A stretch of 64,000 bases of DNA from Coemansia sp. RSA 487. Taxonomy: Eukaryota > Kickxellomycota > Kickxellomycetes > Kickxellales > Kickxellaceae. The notes below the pieces were generated by a model that was given only the letters and a program-made list of their open reading frames with translations, made no database searches and was not told where the DNA came from. The stretch is from positions 1-64,000 of the forward strand of contig JANBRJ010000036.1 of assembly GCA_027577595.1 (NCBI GenBank), written 5' to 3'. Position numbers and translations under genes: made by a program. Below, one piece after another: positions 3,162-51,557 of this stretch; position 1 is the stretch's first letter; every line of letters starts with the position of its first letter.

Positions 3162-4457
3162 TTAGTTGTAGCAACCAGATTCAATTGGTGACTTGCCGGG
3201 AGCAAAGATAGGAAGAATAGCCTTGTACATCGCGTAGCGCTTCTTGGCCTTGTCCTGAGCCGAGCCCTTGCACTCCAGAGCGCCATTTATGTCATTGATC
3301 GAAGCGCCGAACTGACCAGCCTGGACCTTGGAATCGGTGTGCACGTTTTTCTTCCAGTACCAGAAGCTGACACCCCAAGCGATGTCTTCATTGGTAGCAA
3401 CCACACCAGGATCTTCCACCAAACGGTTATCGTTGTACATACCCTCGGATGCGGCCTTGTAGTTGTATTCCCAAGTAAGTTGGATGTATCCGCGGCCCCA
3501 GTAAGTCTTTCCGGGGGCATCTTCGGGAGTCTTGTAGTTCTGAGCACACCAGTTGGGATTATCCACACAATCATACTCTTGCTTGGCACGCAGACCGTCG
3601 GATTCCCACAGGATATTTGCAAGGAACATGGCGGCTTCCGTGGCGGACGAGATGGCACCACTGGTCTCCATTCCCTTGATGAACGCGTTGCACTGAGCAG
3701 AGCTTGGAGTCGGGTAGTTCTGGCCAATTGCCTTGGATGCATCGCTCACGGCCTTATCAAACTTATCGCAAGTAATACCGTAGGAGCTGCCACTGCCTCC
3801 GGAGCTGCTGCCGCCATCGGAACTGCTGCTATCGTCGGAGCTGCTGCTTTCGTCAGCTGCGGCGCCAGATGATTCTGCAGCCGAGGTCGCTTCGTCGGTA
3901 GCTACGCCTCCTGCTTCGGCAGCGCTGGTGGCAGCAGCGTCGCTGCTAACACCACCTTCTTGCTGGCCTGCAGGCGCCGAGCTAGCAGCTGACACGTCAG
4001 CAGCGGGCGATGAAGAAGCAACAGCAGCAGTATCAGACTGATCGACTACACTGGAAGGCGATTGGGCACCATCAGATTTAGCGACATCGTTAGTGACAGC
4101 AGTAACTTGTTGTTGTTCGGCAGATACAGTAGAATCCTCCTGGCCACTTGAACCTTCATTAGGGTAAACGCAATAACCGTCCTGACAAATAGTGCCTAGA
4201 GTGCAATTGGAATATGTAACCCATTTGCTTTCACTACAAAACAAAAGCGATGTGCCATCGGCGCAGACGGTGCGATCTGTTTGTTCATCGCATGAGCCGC
4301 CTTCTTGAGCCGTGGAAGCAGTGGTATCACTGGATTCTTGTTGGTTGGGGACGATGCTATTTATACCTTGCTGAGGATAAGGCACTGCATTGCCAAGCTG
4401 GAAGCTGGCAGCAAGTGCAAAAACTAAAAGCGAAGCAGAATTGGACAGAAGAACCAT
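3162..4457 (-). CDS. secreted GH19 chitinase with N-terminal CBM19-like module
   Basis: A predicted secreted endochitinase of 431 aa. The ATG at 4457 opens a clear signal peptide (LLVFALAASFQLGNA, residues 9-23). The open frame runs further upstream, but that part is not signal-like. Residues 56-96 form a six-cysteine CBM19-like chitin-binding module. Residues 100-225 are a Ser/Ala/Gln-rich linker ending in a Ser/Gly/Asp run. Residues 226-431 are a GH19 catalytic domain with FLANILWESDGL, YWGRGYIQLTW and INGALEC. E285 and E294 fit the catalytic acid/base pair in the short-loop arrangement of class IV-like enzymes. The usual HE of the first motif is WE here. GH19 is common in plants and bacteria but scarce in fungi. 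The enzyme would cleave beta-1,4-GlcNAc in cell walls or prey/host chitin, complementing the LPMO cluster further right. Confidence 0.9.
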   Translation of the reverse strand: MVLLSNSASLLVFALAASFQLGNAVPYPQQGINSIVPNQQESSDTTASTAQEGGSCDEQTDRTVCADGTSLLFCSESKWVTYSNCTLGTICQDGYCVYPNEGSSGQEDSTVSAEQQQVTAVTNDVAKSDGAQSPSSVVDQSDTAAVASSSPAADVSAASSAPAGQQEGGVSSDAAATSAAEAGGVATDEATSAAESSGAAADESSSSDDSSSSDGGSSSGGSGSSYGITCDKFDKAVSDASKAIGQNYPTPSSAQCNAFIKGMETSGAISSATEAAMFLANILWESDGLRAKQEYDCVDNPNWCAQNYKTPEDAPGKTYWGRGYIQLTWEYNYKAASEGMYNDNRLVEDPGVVATNEDIAWGVSFWYWKKNVHTDSKVQAGQFGASINDINGALECKGSAQDKAKKRYAMYKAILPIFAPGKSPIESGCYN

Positions 4458-5672
4458 TGTGAAAGTTCTTTTTCGTATACAAAATGTCCTTGAAGAGGAT
4501 GTGGGAATTGAGGATGGGCTTTTCCGGATTTTTAAGCAACAATATAAAATAGATAAAAACGTCTGTGGGATAATTCTTTCTCCCTGGTCGTGCGCGAAAG
4601 CTTGACTTTTTATATGAAATCGCATACATTTTTATTGCTAGCATATGCTTTGTGCTTTGCAATAGCTATCTTGTAAATGTTGCACAGCCCAACTGCCAAA
4701 GAAACAGCATCCATCCACTGTGAACAACAAATGGAATATCAGAAAATACTAGTTTTGACTGTGTTTCCAAACACATTGGAGCTAGCAGTTATCCTTGTCG
4801 ATAAGTTCCAGACCATAGTATCTCTTTGGTAAGCTGAATCCACTGGTTAGAAATTGGTGGCGTTTGTTTGAAAAATATGAGATTGGTGCACATTGACTAA
4901 ACGTCCTTTGTTGTGTAACATTGCCAATACCTTACACTACAATGTGATACGTCGAAGGGATTTAACTGAACGCTGTGTGTATGAATCAACCAATTCATCC
5001 TATCGTGTTGGTAAGGCGGATATCGGGATTCAACTGAAAGGCCTATCTTTTACAGTGAGCAGAGGAGCAGGAACCAAATCTGAACGAATGCGATTTTATT
5101 TCTACAAACGGGGATAAGCTTGGGATTCGTTGGTTTCATATCTTTTTAGTGCAGTGCCATTGTGGTCTTTATGGCCTGCGACAGCAAATGGCTAACTGCG
5201 AGGACTGCTTCATTTTAGTCACTGTTGGTTGTGCGTGTGGGAAACCAGTCATGCGCAAACACTTGATGTCATGGCATCATTTCGGTACTGGGTTTGATTC
5301 GAAAATACGCACCACAGCCCTTCTATGTTATCCAATAGTAATAGAATGATCGATCGACAATAACTTTAATGAATGCTTGGTCAGAAGGGGCAGATCGAAA
5401 GTGCATCAACCAATAGCTAATGACGTCACCAAGCTATGAACATGATGATGAGGTTTAAAAGTTGCACCATTTTTGCTTCCAATTTTTTATCTACCACAAG
5501 CAGTAGAACATGAGGACTAGGGGGTGAAAGGGCGTTTTTAATGGCTATCTCCCCTTGAACAAAATTGCATTCTTCTTTATCTATATCACTCCTTTTCCAT
5601 CAACGAAAGAAGCATTATATATTTTAATTATTCCAAAGTTTACGTAATATTAAACCATCTATTAAAACTGGA
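4458..5672. other. intergenic between divergent chitinase and importin-like genes
   Basis: This 1.2-kb spacer serves as upstream region for both neighbours. The small open frames in it (for example 4893-5117 and 5149-5349) show no family signature and are treated as chance. Confidence 0.6.
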
Positions 5673-38209: not shown

Positions 38210-39321
38210 ATGTGGCATAATAATTCTTGGTTTGTAGTTCTGACGCTGGTCGTCTTCTCTGCCCACACAATTGCACACATTTCCTTAACCATACCATGCC
38301 CACGCTTTTCAAATACAACATTGGTATGTCCTGCCAACCATAACCCTACCGATATATTACCTGGTGAGATGAACGGGCCTATAAACTCAGTACAACTAGG
38401 TGGTATGCTCCCACTATGTAAATACACTGTGCCTTGGCCCGCCCCCCAGCCGCTTGGACTGCCGGCGAGACAGTCAAGATTCAATTTGGCTCTCTTGCAG
38501 TTTCCCACTCGGGCGGACATGCAGAGTTTTCTATATCGTATGATGGTGGCAAGGCGTTTGTCGTCCTTATTCAGGTGCTACGTTATGTGTTTGTAGGTAA
38601 ATATCCTGGTGCAATTACCAACGAGGTCAGCGTATTAGCTTATTACATCAAGCTGCCGGATAAGCTGCCTAGTTCTGATAAAGCAGTGTTTGCGTGGACA
38701 TGGGTCAATGCTTCAGGTAATCGAGAGTTCTATATGAACTGTGCAGATGTGGCAATTAAAGGAACTTCAGATTCGATTACCGGGAAAGAAATGACTATTG
38801 TAAATTATCCAAATTACCCAACTGTCCCCGAGTTCAAAAGGAATTATGAAACGGCTATTAACTACTACACGACTGATGCAAAGTACGTGAAGGTGTATGG
38901 CAATGGGAAGTCAGAAGTTGCAAAGGCTGCGGATTCCGATATAACTTACGAAAACGGGAATAATAACGTGAATGGAGGCAGCTCTAATGTACAATCTGAA
39001 GTATCTATTAGTTCACCGCCTATTTCAAGCAGTGTGTATCAGCCTAGTGACAACACAAATAGATATAACGGTGCTTCTAATACCAATACAGCCATAGGAC
39101 GTGATGCTGGTGGTACAAGTGTAAATACAGGGACCACATATGATGGCGATGGTTTTAGCGCCAATTTGAGTAGCAATGATTTAAATCCCCAATTTAAAGG
39201 CTTTGTATATGTTAATAGTGACAATGTCAGTATTAGTTATAATAATAGAGGCGACCAATACGGAGACAAAGATGAAGACGAGGACGAAGACTGCGATGAT
39301 GAGGATGATGCGGAAGAATAG
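38210..39321 (+). pseudogene. AA11-like LPMO, frameshifted (array gene 1)
   Basis: The first of nine LPMO-like genes. The signal peptide ends at AHTIA, leaving H23 at the mature N-terminus (HISLTIPCPRF). The frame is lost near 38440, inside PWP-x-P-x-A, where one base fewer is present than in the neighbours (next to a C run). It resumes in the next frame with WTAGETVKIQF, SHSGGHAEFSISYDGG (second brace His) and NASGNREFYMNCADV (axial Tyr). The tail is Ser/Asn-rich and ends in a very acidic stretch with ECD-type residues (EDCDDEDD). It lacks the YYSGVY module of genes 2-4. It is either a recent pseudogene or a base miscalled in the C run. Confidence 0.8.
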
Positions 39322-46741: not shown

Positions 46742-49252
46742 ATGAAGCTTATTTATATGGTGCCCGGCCTGGTCGGGCTCTTTGGTGCTGCAAATGCTGG
46801 CATTTCAGTCACCTCACCATGCCCTCGATTCTCGACGGCTAAAGGATGTCCCTCTATCCCTCCTGGCATCAGTGCAGATGCCAACATGAACACGCCTGTC
46901 ACTAACACCGCCAGCCAAAGCATGTTCGAACTATGTCGGCACAAAGAAGAGTGGCCTGCCCCGGTGGCAAACTGGGTCGCTGGCCAGCCTGTGACCATCG
47001 AGTTTGAGATCGAAGCAAACACAGTGCTTGGAGGCTTCTGCCAATTCTCAGTATCTTACGATGGCGTGAACTTTGCTGTCATCGACCAAGTTCTTGGAAA
47101 CTGCTTCTCTCAGCAGCAAAGTAACTCAGCAAATGTGCAGGTAGCTTCGCAGACCTTCAAGCTGCCAGACTATCTTCCAGCATCAAATGAAACTATTTTT
47201 GCATGGACTTGGCTTAGCCCTAGTGCTGAAGGCGACTTTTACATGAATTGTGCTGATGTCAATATTGCCAGCAAAAGTAATAGCACCTCCTACTCTGGAA
47301 AGAAGATGATTATTGCTAATGCACCTGGTTATCCACAGCTTATTGCTAGCGATGCCAACGAATCCACTATCCAGAGCCAGTATGGAGCTTCCACGGATAT
47401 ATCTGTCTCTCCTGTTTCTGGCAATAGGAAGCGTCATGTTAGCTCCAAGACTGGTGAAGATTGCGGTGATCCTAATGTGACGAGCGACAATGAAGATAGC
47501 TCTGACAGCGACTCCGAAGGCGGTGGCAAACATGACAAGAATGGTAAGAAAGGGTCATCTGGTAGTAGCAGCGAAATAGATCCCAGTAGCAGTAGCTCTT
47601 CTAGCATGGGTGCCAGCAATTTTGGTGCGGTTAAAAGCAATGGTAGCGGGTTTTCCAGCAGCACCTATAGCTCTGGTGGATTTGTGGTTGGCACTGATGG
47701 TAGCACTACATCATTTGGCTCTGCTAATGGTGGTATGGGAAGTTACACTGGTGGTGTCAATTATAACCAGCAGCAACAGCAGCAGCAAGAGGAAGAGTAC
47801 TGTGATGAGGATGAAGAGTATGAAACCGACTGCGAAGAGATGATGGGTGGCAATAACAACGGCGGAAGCTACAACAACGGTAATAACAACGGAAACAACA
47901 ACGGCGGTAGCTACAACAATGGTAACTCCAACGACGGTAGCTACAATAACGGTGGTAGCTTTAACAACGGCGGCAGCTTTAACAACGGTGGCTCCAACGG
48001 TGGTACATGCAGAAAGAAGCAGAGCTGTGATTGCAGTGGAAGTTCCAGCAGCTCTAGCAGCTCCAGTAGCTCCAGTAGCAGCAGCAGTGGCAACTTTGAT
48101 ATGTCTACCTACATGAACTACATGATGATGATGCAGATGATGAAGTCTATGCAAAACAATATGACCCCGAACTACCAAATGAACGGTGGTTATATGAATC
48201 CATACATGAATTCCTACATGTCTGGCATGAGCGGTATGACTGGCATGAACGCTATGACTGGTATGACTGGCATGACTGGCATGAACGCTATGACTGGAAA
48301 TATGCTTGGTAACAGCATGTACGGTATGTATGGTATGAATGGAATGAACGGAATGAACAGCATGGGTGGCATGTATGGTATGAATGGAATGAGCGGTAAC
48401 AGCATGTACGGTAACATGAATGGAAACAACATGTTTGGTAACAATATGAATGGAATGAACGGCATGAACGGCATGAACGGTTACATGGGAGGTGGTTCTA
48501 ATTCAGATAGCAATGTCAACATTAACCTTGACATGAATGGCAATAACCAGGGCGGCTATGGTCAGAATGGATATGGCCAGAACGGTAACTACAACCAGAA
48601 TGGATATGGCCAGAACGGTTACAACCAGAATGGTAATTATAACCAGGGTGGATACAACCAAGATAGATATGGCCAAAACGATTACAACCAGAATGGATAT
48701 GACCAGAACGACTATAACCGGAACAGCTACAATCAGAACGGATATAACCAGAACGACTATAACCAGGGCAGCTACGACCAAGATAACTATGGCCAGAACA
48801 GAAATAGCCAGGGAAGCTACGGCCAAAACAGCTACAACCAAGGCAGTTACGGTAATGACAATAGCGGAAACGGCAAGGACGTGAACAACGGCATCGATGC
48901 AGGCTCATCGAGCAGTGCTGTTCAGCCATCGTCCAGCGTGTCTCTCCAGTACGAGACCATTGTTTCCCTTGGCTATGTCACAGAGACTGTTTACTCTGAA
49001 GTCGACGTAACTGAGACTATTGTGACCACTGAATATACGACCGGATCCTCTACTGTCGCAGGCTCTTTGGTTACTCCAGTATCTGTTGCTCCCCAGATGA
49101 ATGCCGTGGTCTCCTACCAGCCCGCATTGTTCGGATCTGAGCCAAATGGGGCTGGATCGAGTGAGGGGTCCTCGCTTTACCCTGCTACTGTCATGGAGAA
49201 CGGTGCTGCCCAGCCCGCCAACTTCCAGTACGTGAACCCTGTTAACGCCTAG
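46742..49252 (+). CDS. brace-less LPMO-like protein with Met-rich and Gln/Asn-rich tail (array gene 5)
   Basis: 836 aa. The frame opens at a TTG, and the ATG at 46742 gives a good signal peptide ending AANA. The mature chain then starts with Gly (GISVTSPCPRF), so the first brace His is absent. The second is Val95 (VLGGFCQF). The fold signatures remain: CPRF, FSVSYDG, VLGNCF (Cys pair present), IFAWTWLSP and EGDFYMNCADV. Without both His it should not form the LPMO copper site. The tail has an acidic CDEDEEYETDCEE segment, a Gly/Asn repeat, SCDCSG plus poly-Ser, about 40 Met in roughly 130 residues (453-583), a Gln-Asn-Gly-Tyr repeat (600-700), and a GYVTETVYSEVDVTET end that recalls gene 6. 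It may be a structural or substrate-binding wall protein. Confidence 0.85.
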   Translation: MKLIYMVPGLVGLFGAANAGISVTSPCPRFSTAKGCPSIPPGISADANMNTPVTNTASQSMFELCRHKEEWPAPVANWVAGQPVTIEFEIEANTVLGGFCQFSVSYDGVNFAVIDQVLGNCFSQQQSNSANVQVASQTFKLPDYLPASNETIFAWTWLSPSAEGDFYMNCADVNIASKSNSTSYSGKKMIIANAPGYPQLIASDANESTIQSQYGASTDISVSPVSGNRKRHVSSKTGEDCGDPNVTSDNEDSSDSDSEGGGKHDKNGKKGSSGSSSEIDPSSSSSSSMGASNFGAVKSNGSGFSSSTYSSGGFVVGTDGSTTSFGSANGGMGSYTGGVNYNQQQQQQQEEEYCDEDEEYETDCEEMMGGNNNGGSYNNGNNNGNNNGGSYNNGNSNDGSYNNGGSFNNGGSFNNGGSNGGTCRKKQSCDCSGSSSSSSSSSSSSSSSSGNFDMSTYMNYMMMMQMMKSMQNNMTPNYQMNGGYMNPYMNSYMSGMSGMTGMNAMTGMTGMTGMNAMTGNMLGNSMYGMYGMNGMNGMNSMGGMYGMNGMSGNSMYGNMNGNNMFGNNMNGMNGMNGMNGYMGGGSNSDSNVNINLDMNGNNQGGYGQNGYGQNGNYNQNGYGQNGYNQNGNYNQGGYNQDRYGQNDYNQNGYDQNDYNRNSYNQNGYNQNDYNQGSYDQDNYGQNRNSQGSYGQNSYNQGSYGNDNSGNGKDVNNGIDAGSSSSAVQPSSSVSLQYETIVSLGYVTETVYSEVDVTETIVTTEYTTGSSTVAGSLVTPVSVAPQMNAVVSYQPALFGSEPNGAGSSEGSSLYPATVMENGAAQPANFQYVNPVNA
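47850..48000 (+). repeat. Gly/Asn coding repeat in array gene 5
   Basis: Degenerate tandem units encoding GGSYNNG/NNNGNNNGG lie between the acidic segment and the SCDCSG motif. Confidence 0.75.
48101..48490 (+). repeat. Met-rich (GMNGM) coding repeat in array gene 5
   Basis: Imperfect repeats of ATGAAYGG-type units encode strings such as GMNGMNGM and TGMTGMN, with about 40 Met in about 130 residues. The spacing (M-x-x-M) resembles Cu(I)-binding methionine motifs of copper transporters, though that resemblance is only by composition. Confidence 0.8.
48545..48850 (+). repeat. Tyr/Asn/Gln coding repeat (QNGY) in array gene 5
   Basis: Tandem units encoding YNQNGYGQNGY/YNQxDY form a prion-like, low-complexity segment of about 100 residues. 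This type of sequence often self-associates. Confidence 0.8.
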
Positions 49253-49757
49253 CCAGTATGTGATAGGTAGAGGTTTTCTTTTTTCTTTCAGCTCTTATTT
49301 CTTATGTTTAACACACAAGACCAATATAATTTTTTATATTGCTTTAAACTAACACTACAATGAACGAGGTGTATGAGTGATGTTGACATGCGATAGCGTC
49401 ATGTGTATCAACGCTTACTTTTGTAGTTTGCTTGAATGGAAAGATGGAAGTTAAAAGAGTTTGTAGAGTACGCAAAAGACAAATATTTTGCACAATGGAG
49501 AACGTGCATTGCCTTTTTGAGAGGATTCTTTCTGCCTTTGAAACTCTTGCTGAAAAGAAACCCCATGCTTTTTATCTTCAACGTTTTTTCTCTTTTATTT
49601 TATTTTGTGCCATTGGTTTACATGAAAAAGTGATGAAATAGAAGATGAAAGAGCGAGTCTTGCTCTCACCTTTCTACACACTAGTATAGTTCACCTCTAT
49701 ACTGTTTCCCCTTCCTTCAATCTTTATTGCTCTATTATATATTTTTATGTTTTTGTA
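49253..49757. other. upstream of array gene 6
   Basis: 505 bp. Short frames at 49432-49641 have no family support. The 3' part is pyrimidine-rich and shares GCTCTATTAT (near 49728) with the region before gene 5. Confidence 0.5.
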
Positions 49758-51557
49758 ATGTGGTTATTTGTACGTATAGTTGTGCCGGGTATGCTTGGGC
49801 TGCTTGGCACTGCACATGCAGGAATTCATATTACCAACCCGTGTCCTCGGTTTTCGGACCAATCAGGATGCCCCGAACCGCCAGAGTACATTGGCTATGA
49901 CAACAATATAAACACGCCTATCACCAACTTTTATGACGAGAACCCGATGAGCTTGTGCAGACACACAGAAAAGTGGTCAACCCCGGTGACTACATGGACT
50001 GCTGGCCAGTCAGTCGCCATTGAGTTTGAAATAGAGAACAACACAACACTTGGCGGATTATGCCAGTTTTCAGTATCATACAATGGCGAGGATTTTGCTG
50101 TCATCGACCAAATAGTCGAGGATTGCTTCAAGCAAGGTACCACGTCGTATACGCTTGAGCTGCCAGATACTTTGCCTGCATCCGAAAGCGCGGTGTTTGC
50201 ATGGACTTGGCTGAGTCCCGTCGACCGTGGAGACTTTTACATGAACTGCGCAGATGTAGCAATTAACAACGACAATGGTAGCAAGTCGTACAGCGGTGTC
50301 GCTATGTCGGTCTTTAATTACCCGGGATATCCCGAAATATACGGTAGAGATAATATCGATGGCCCCGGGGTGCACTACTATATGGAAGATGAGGAAATTA
50401 TAGTTGGACCAGGGATGGCCAGGGGGCTTTTTAAGAGAGCCGACGCTAGCGAGGGAGACAAATGTGATGATGCCTCTGTTGAAAACAGTGGCGATTCGTT
50501 GACTGTTGATGGAGGAGATGATTCCTCGATTGCCAATGACGGAGACTCATCTAGCGACTCTAAAAGTCATAAAAAGGGCAGCAACCATAGCAGCGACAGC
50601 AATGAAACTATTTTGCATGATGATGATCCTTCCTCAGATACCTCTGATTACAACGATGACAAGTGCGATGATAGCTATAGCGATGAGGATCTTAGCGAGC
50701 TAAACGACAGCGATTCGATGGATCCCTCTGATTACAGCGACGACAAGTGCGACGATAGCTATACCGAAGATTCTAGCGAAACCGACGACTCTAGCGAGCT
50801 TGGTGATTCAAGCAGCCTGGATGGCGGTGGTATTACCATTGTTGACAGCGACATTAGCAGCAGCAGCGACGACCCTGGCTCCGAGCTTGACAGTTTGGAC
50901 TCAGAATCCAGCTCCGACGATTCATCGGGCATGGATGACTCAAGCCCCACATCTTCTGAAGAGCCGACATCTTCTGAAGAACCAACATCGTCGTCATCTA
51001 CATACCTTGCCAATCCCATCGGCAATAGCAACGAGCCGCCGCTGCTGTGCACGACATCAGCCTCATATGACGTCATTTCAGACATATACTACTCCGGTGT
51101 CTATGCATCTGACGAGTTTGGGTACATGTCGATGTACGCCGAGCTGCTTACTCTGGACTCGTACGACTCTGTTGGGTATGTAACTGAAACTGTTTCCAGC
51201 GAATCCACACTAAGCGATGATCTCGGGGAAATGGAGAGCGACAGTAGCAGCGATGCTTCTTCTTCTTCTTCCAATGGCGAAGATCTTGCAACGGACGAAA
51301 ACGGTTCGCCGTATGTTATGTTCGAGTACAGTTCGCCAGGAGACAATGGGAGCGATTCCGCTGATCCTGCTGTGGCTTCTTTGGATCCGCAAGAAGAAAA
51401 TAACGGCGAATCGCCCACGAGTTCGCCACCTGCAACGCCCTCGGACTCCCTTTCTTCCGCAGCTCCACCGGATAACTCCCAAGATCCACAGCCGTCAGCC
51501 AATGTTAACCAGAATATCGAAGACAATTCACTGTTCATCGGTGGAGGCATCCAGTAA
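49758..51557 (+). CDS. brace-less LPMO-like protein with acidic tail and YYSGVY module (array gene 6)
   Basis: 599 aa. The signal peptide ends AHA (residue 21). The mature chain begins GIHITNPCPRF, so Gly22 stands where the other members have the brace His, and the nearby His24 is two residues out of register. The second brace position is Thr97 (TLGGLCQF). It keeps the Cys pair, FSVSYNG, VFAWTWLSP and GDFYMNCADV. The tail carries two DDKCDDSY motifs. The C-terminal module from 51000 holds EPPLLCT, DIYYSGVYAS, GYVTETV and VMFEYSS, then an extra Pro/Ser-rich end. It pairs with gene 5 in lacking both His but has the module of genes 2-4, so tail and brace loss assort independently. Confidence 0.85.
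   Translation: MWLFVRIVVPGMLGLLGTAHAGIHITNPCPRFSDQSGCPEPPEYIGYDNNINTPITNFYDENPMSLCRHTEKWSTPVTTWTAGQSVAIEFEIENNTTLGGLCQFSVSYNGEDFAVIDQIVEDCFKQGTTSYTLELPDTLPASESAVFAWTWLSPVDRGDFYMNCADVAINNDNGSKSYSGVAMSVFNYPGYPEIYGRDNIDGPGVHYYMEDEEIIVGPGMARGLFKRADASEGDKCDDASVENSGDSLTVDGGDDSSIANDGDSSSDSKSHKKGSNHSSDSNETILHDDDPSSDTSDYNDDKCDDSYSDEDLSELNDSDSMDPSDYSDDKCDDSYTEDSSETDDSSELGDSSSLDGGGITIVDSDISSSSDDPGSELDSLDSESSSDDSSGMDDSSPTSSEEPTSSEEPTSSSSTYLANPIGNSNEPPLLCTTSASYDVISDIYYSGVYASDEFGYMSMYAELLTLDSYDSVGYVTETVSSESTLSDDLGEMESDSSSDASSSSSNGEDLATDENGSPYVMFEYSSPGDNGSDSADPAVASLDPQEENNGESPTSSPPATPSDSLSSAAPPDNSQDPQPSANVNQNIEDNSLFIGGGIQ

Follow-up and report, generated by a model that had tools for sequence, protein, structure and literature searches.

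The closest described counterparts of the proteins considered here are the AA11 LPMOs AfAA11A (7p3u), AoAA11 (4mah/4mai) and AfAA11B (9exj). These enzymes have both copper histidines, a second-sphere NRE triplet and an Ala two residues before the second His. In the AA9 family, LsAA9B from Lentinus similis has Arg as its first residue. It is described as a natural case of brace loss in a folded LPMO-like protein (PMC10354095). The X325/Bim1 proteins are LPMO-like fungal proteins for which no LPMO activity is shown; their copper site retains the His brace and has Asp as an additional ligand (PMC10952591). PutMoP from Parascedosporium putredinis NO1 is secreted, has some LPMO-like structure and lacks an N-terminal His, but is reported to have no sequence similarity to LPMOs and is thought unlikely to be one (PMC10714830).

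The functional precedent is CWR-1 of Neurospora crassa, whose AA11 domain acts in allorecognition without catalysis, although the wild-type protein keeps its brace and oxidises chitin (PMC9550227). In that study, every single and double His variant is inactive on beta-chitin, and copper is bound by the single variants and much less by the double ones. The double variant still blocks cell fusion; the block by the His mutants is less complete (about 20 percent fusion versus about 6 in wild type), and the authors attribute it to a non-enzymatic interaction with CWR-2 (PMC9550227). Among the full-text literature matches listed, to the extent that their text was accessible, we found no natural brace-less AA11 protein, which is weak evidence of absence as subscription papers mostly fall outside that collection.

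We analysed a window of 64,000 nucleotides of Coemansia sp. RSA 487, in which the + strand between 38210 and 58605 carries nine AA11-like genes, the first (g1) broken and the others termed g2 to g9 (Table 1). Two neighbours, g5 and g6, match the AA11 LPMOs in sequence, fold, six domain cysteines, axial Tyr motif, secretion signal and low-complexity region after the domain, and differ from them in lacking both copper histidines, the NRE triplet and the Ala two residues before the second His. Their natural loss of the brace, here within AA11, parallels that in the AA9 protein LsAA9B, the absence of brace His separates them from X325/Bim1 with its His-brace copper site and Asp ligand, and clear AA11 relationship separates them from PutMoP.

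Table 1. Positions of the AA11-like genes, their relevant parts and other features in the window.
Feature	Start	End	Strand	Description
GH19 chitinase	3165	4625	-	Cys-rich N-terminal segment
Cobalamin adenosyltransferase, one copy	7406	8037
Cobalamin adenosyltransferase, other copy	34106	34737
g1	38210	39321	+	Broken AA11 paralogue; both His columns visible in separate pieces
g2	40255	41679	+	AA11 paralogue with brace
g2 shared C-terminal module	41287	41676
g3	42360	44090	+	AA11 paralogue with brace
g3 shared C-terminal module	43686	44087
g4	44546	46285	+	AA11 paralogue with brace; three in-frame ATGs are candidates for the start
g4 shared C-terminal module	45887	46282
g5	46742	49252	+	AA11-like, without histidine brace; 836 aa; 19-aa signal peptide (placed by alignment), ~205-aa domain, long low-complexity tail
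g5 Gly20	46799	46801	+	Codon GGC; column of N-terminal copper His
g5 Val95	47024	47026	+	Codon GTG; column of second brace His
g5 Met-richest tail segment	48092	48391	+	32 Met in 100 aa, MxxM spacing
g6	49758	51557	+	AA11-like, without histidine brace; 599 aa; 21-aa signal peptide (placed by alignment), domain, Ser/Asp-rich tail, C-terminal module
g6 Gly22	49821	49823	+	Codon GGA; column of N-terminal copper His
g6 Thr97	50046	50048	+	Codon ACA; column of second brace His; the Thr ends an N-T-T sequon
g6 C-terminal region	50991	51554	+	Shared module, related to ends of g2 and g3, weakly g4 (blastp)
g7	52359	53591	+	AA11 paralogue with brace and Cys-rich C-terminal module
g8	55581	56531	+	AA11 paralogue with brace and Cys-rich C-terminal module
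g9	57412	58605	+	AA11 paralogue with brace and CBM19-like C-terminal module

Based on sequence comparison and predicted models, g5 and g6 are clearly AA11-type LPMO-like proteins. Both show AA11 similarity by phmmer against AfAA11A (7p3u; 1.9e-11 for g5 and 1.9e-13 for g6) and match AoAA11 (4mah; 3e-6 and 6.2e-5, respectively). In AlphaFold2 models, run on eight window sequences, both have the LPMO beta-sandwich fold at moderate confidence (mean pLDDT 65.4 for g5 and 72.8 for g6), and 7p3u is the top Foldseek match of each (E 3.1e-10 and TMq 0.62 for g5; E 1.7e-10 and TMq 0.61 for g6). Pfam at E up to 0.1 gave no family for either, and NCBIfam gave none for the four proteins scanned. Searches for relatives beyond the window returned none from 18 pattern stretches in viral contigs and none from 54 in prokaryotic contigs, both poor places to seek the relatives of a eukaryote gene.

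The brace columns were read in a register anchored on the motifs PCPR and GG.[CMA][EQ][FW]S[IV]SY (GG.CQFSVSY in g5 and g6). In this register, His stands at both columns in all six other intact paralogues (g2, g3, g4, g7, g8 and g9) and, in its separate pieces, in the broken g1. In g5 and g6 the N-terminal His is replaced by Gly and the second by Val95 and Thr97, the same residues that an earlier sequence-only reading of this DNA had named. That reading had also pointed to retained signal peptides, a Cys pair, FAWTW and the Tyr motif FYMNCADV; all are present, the last with the axial Tyr, and the cysteines retained are all six of the domain. All four replaced codons are at least two base changes away from any His codon, so that a single-base sequencing error cannot explain the losses and this source was rejected. 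In g6, overlapping N-glycosylation sequons (NNT, NTT) occupy positions 50037 to 50048, where the copper site used to be. One cysteine pair (mature positions of about 82 and 104) is absent from g2, g3, g7 and g8 and kept in g4, g5, g6 and g9.

The sequence-only reading had allowed that an upstream exon or another cleavage site might restore the N-terminal His; we recovered no in-register His in g5 or g6. GT donors back to the end of the previous gene were paired with an AG acceptor within mature codons 1 to 6 (one acceptor per gene, a single GT-AG intron, previous gene as upstream limit), and a pair passed if it placed an in-register His after an open stretch of 12 to 40 codons starting with ATG. 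None of the 17 pairs in g5 and none of the 36 in g6 passed. Residues 1 to 60 of g5 contain no His at all, and its signal-peptide region aligns with those of g7 and g8 from residue 1. In g6 the alignment of this region to g5 begins at residue 8, and that to g7 and g8 not before residue 15. The g6 precursor has His at positions 20 and 24. A cut behind Ala19 would make His20 the first residue, out of register by two positions and with Thr still standing where the second ligand was. Within the splice and cleavage alternatives tried, a missed exon or alternative cleavage site giving an in-register His was thus rejected.

The changes extend to the second sphere. The NRE triplet has become EGD in g5 and RGD in g6. 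Two positions ahead of the second His, where the six brace paralogues have Ala or Val, both proteins have Asn. In AfAA11A the residue at this position, Ala69, is reported to take one axial position of the copper (PMC8668981). A second-sphere Asn and Glu139 are described as common to three AA11 structures, with Glu139 important for productive catalysis (PMC12186267; the Asn was matched to a column of our alignment by inference). The second-sphere Glu and Asn of AA11 enzymes are thus missing from g5 and g6, whereas the axial Tyr is kept.

The six brace paralogues have 78 invariant columns. With gaps scored as changes, g5 and g6 both keep 49 of these; 19 are changed in both and 10 in one. Changes are concentrated at the five site columns (His1, His77, Asn148, Glu150 and Tyr152 in g7 mature numbering), four of which are changed in both proteins compared to 15 of the 73 other invariant columns (Fisher p 0.011; three of four versus 16 of 74 without the Asn, p 0.043). 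As the site columns were chosen with the answer known, these p values are descriptive only.

Next to each other and both without a brace, g5 and g6 had been counted as two losses. This count is not borne out: the two form one clade with UFBoot 100, both without and with the outgroup fragments of 7p3u and 4mah, and 27 residues common to them are absent from the six other paralogues. Both outgroup fragments, which exclude the N-terminus, have His at the second column, so the loss of the brace is derived. A single ancestral event is the simplest account of the double loss in these sister genes, probably followed by duplication into g5 and g6; independent loss in each is disfavoured by the clade support and the 27 shared residues. 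How g4, g9 and the g5/g6 clade branch relative to one another has low support (46-68).

The g5-g6 pair has a pairwise NG86 dN of 0.44 and dS of 1.80, a ratio of 0.25 (0.22 by YN00) to be read with dS near saturation. NG86 dS was not computable for 14 of the 28 gene pairs, and YN00 failed for 24 of the 28. We also fitted a GY94-type codon model, custom-written and not benchmarked against PAML, to 187 gap-free codons of eight genes. The one-ratio omega is 0.133-0.135 and the background about 0.13. For the g5 and g6 tips omega is 0.046-0.069 with the stem sharing the background ratio and 0.12 with the stem free; for tips plus stem it is 0.19-0.20.

On three distinct topologies the model rejects a ratio of 1, with 2dlnL of 48.0-48.9 for the tips and 49.4-49.6 for the clade; the first fit does so as well (50.2). 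Four topologies were run, two of which are the same unrooted tree, and the best fit joins g9 to g5/g6. Tested singly, g5 rejects omega = 1 moderately (2dlnL 13.4) and g6 weakly (5.15). Allowing the tips to differ from the background brings no improvement (2dlnL 0.3-0.8): the omega of g5 and g6 is indistinguishable from that of the brace paralogues. Within the limits set by a dS near saturation and the weak result for g6 alone, the AA11 domain of g5 and g6, with its cysteines, is held by purifying selection. A dN/dS near 1, which would have spoken for decay, is not what we find. Of the proposal that the pair reflects selected neofunctionalisation and not decay, selected maintenance therefore stands, given the rejection of omega = 1 and the open frames. 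Neofunctionalisation as opposed to subfunctionalisation does not follow, as omega is not estimable on the stem, the branch along which the brace was lost: in the search for positive selection on the g5/g6 stem it ran to the bound and differed neither from 1 nor from the background.

The old copper site itself may have been remodelled. We considered the columns at which g5 and g6 both depart from all six other paralogues. The two share the same new residue at 11 of 15 such columns within five residues of the site columns versus 16 of 52 elsewhere (p 0.004), a value that depends on the radius, with extremes of 0.0015 at radius 10 and 0.16 at radius 1. Leaving out the columns after position 165 weakens the signal, to p 0.039 for radius 5 and 0.16 for radius 3. 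The five site columns are free of departures in the three other gene pairs compared. Around the old site, g5 and g6 have in common the segments FEIExNTxLGGxCQFSVSY and WLSPxxxGDFYMNC. This pattern suggests, short of proof, that a new state is now maintained at the old copper site. More tentatively, the AA11 copper site could have been rebuilt in one ancestor as a new conserved non-metal binding site, giving rise to a natural class of pseudo-LPMOs for fungal-wall recognition.

Taken together, we favour, with a probability of roughly 0.72, the reading of g5 and g6 as secreted pseudo-LPMOs that do not oxidise but have kept a role in binding or recognition. By family chemistry and by analogy with the CWR-1 mutants, both copper histidines being missing, the two should not oxidise chitin, and an LPMO-type copper site and oxidation are very unlikely. 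As domain, cysteines and secretion signal are kept, binding or recognition is the natural remaining role. An AA11 gene of the cluster would have been duplicated, and one copy would have lost the brace and the second-sphere residues. This brace-less copy would later have been duplicated again into g5 and g6. In both, the AA11 domain would sit on a long low-complexity tail and most probably act extracellularly, in binding or recognition without catalysis. Against this reading, the single His variants of CWR-1 are reported to bind copper, so by analogy a partial site may do so too (PMC9550227).

Genome surveys readily count LPMO-family genes as oxidative enzymes. A maintained brace-less pair within an AA11 cluster would mean that family membership does not always mean oxidation. 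The two proteins would be the natural counterpart to the engineered, catalytically dead CWR-1 and offer a direct test of the role of the LPMO fold without copper.

Two special cases of the pseudo-LPMO reading can be distinguished. In the first, which we consider possible but less likely than not, g5 and g6 would still bind chitin through a retained surface and, as free binding modules, coat, loosen or shield it. The domain and secretion signal are kept, and the same window contains a GH19 chitinase (3165-4625) and the CBM19-like end of g9. On the other side, Tyr25 of AfAA11A, a surface residue reported as important for chitin binding (PMC12186267), corresponds to Ala in g5 and Asn in g6. Its equivalent is also missing in g2, g3, g7 and g8, so that this absence alone does not mark g5 and g6. 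They further lack the Cys-rich module found at the ends of g7 to g9, in which Pfam recognises CBM19 in g9 only (2.6e-5), with no matches for the g7 and g8 ends. A chitin-binding role of the pair finds no support in the Tyr25 column, where four of the six brace paralogues also lack the residue.

In the second special case, which we consider doubtful, g5 and g6 would act in recognition or signalling through contact with a protein partner at the cell wall, as is proposed for CWR-1 and CWR-2 in Neurospora. DUF3433, the domain type of CWR-2, had no match among the window proteins given to Pfam (a subset of the possible exons), and this speaks against the idea. In its favour, an AA11 domain with both brace histidines mutated is reported still to trigger the fusion block (CWR-1, PMC9550227).

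A retained metal role, in which the N-terminal region of g6 or the Met-rich tail of g5 binds copper for uptake or for supply to neighbouring enzymes, is improbable. The mature form of g6 has His at position 3 (precursor 24), or would begin with His20 if cleaved two residues earlier, but in g5 the first His comes no earlier than mature residue 48, and both proteins have Val or Thr in place of the second ligand. In the g5 tail, positions 48092-48830 encode a Met-rich MxxM stretch, whose densest 100 residues hold 32 Met, followed by Gln/Asn/Gly/Tyr repeats in mixed synonymous codons; residues 461-585 contain 23 MxxM. These Met-rich runs are, however, tandem-repeat DNA and may reflect repeat expansion, and the g6 tail has only 1.8 percent Met.

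Early decay, in which a copy lost its function and the frames stay open by chance or recency, is highly improbable: the broken g1 indicates that decay, or an assembly error mimicking it, occurs in this cluster, but omega = 1 is rejected for the pair, both frames run uninterrupted from ATG to stop, 49 of the 78 invariant columns are kept in both, and an identity of about 55 percent over gap-free columns indicates that g5 and g6 have long been separated. The frame of g1 changes near 38440-38446, at a C-rich run, which is compatible with a pseudogene or an assembly error.

Beyond the AA11 domain, g6 shares a C-terminal module with g2, g3 and, weakly, g4, with the conserved segments YYSxV(Y/F)xS and FE(F/Y)S in all four. 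The blastp E values for the g6 module are 3.4e-5 to g2, 5.1e-4 to g3 and 0.021 to g4 in the best direction, and 3.3e-4, 0.014 and 3.0, respectively, in the other. The g6 module matches no Pfam family, and no clear copy was seen in g5, whose best E value, to g6, is 9.2.

Elsewhere in the window, Pfam matches include ORC5, an exocyst-subunit-like protein, a fungal protein kinase and the GH19 chitinase, which lies about 34 kb away from the AA11 cluster. AA11 expansions are reported for mycoparasitic early-diverging fungi and GH19 for Zoopagomycota (PMC6784888), with which the AA11 cluster and the GH19 gene of this window are consistent. Finally, most of a cobalamin adenosyltransferase gene is present in a second copy that is 93.8 percent identical.
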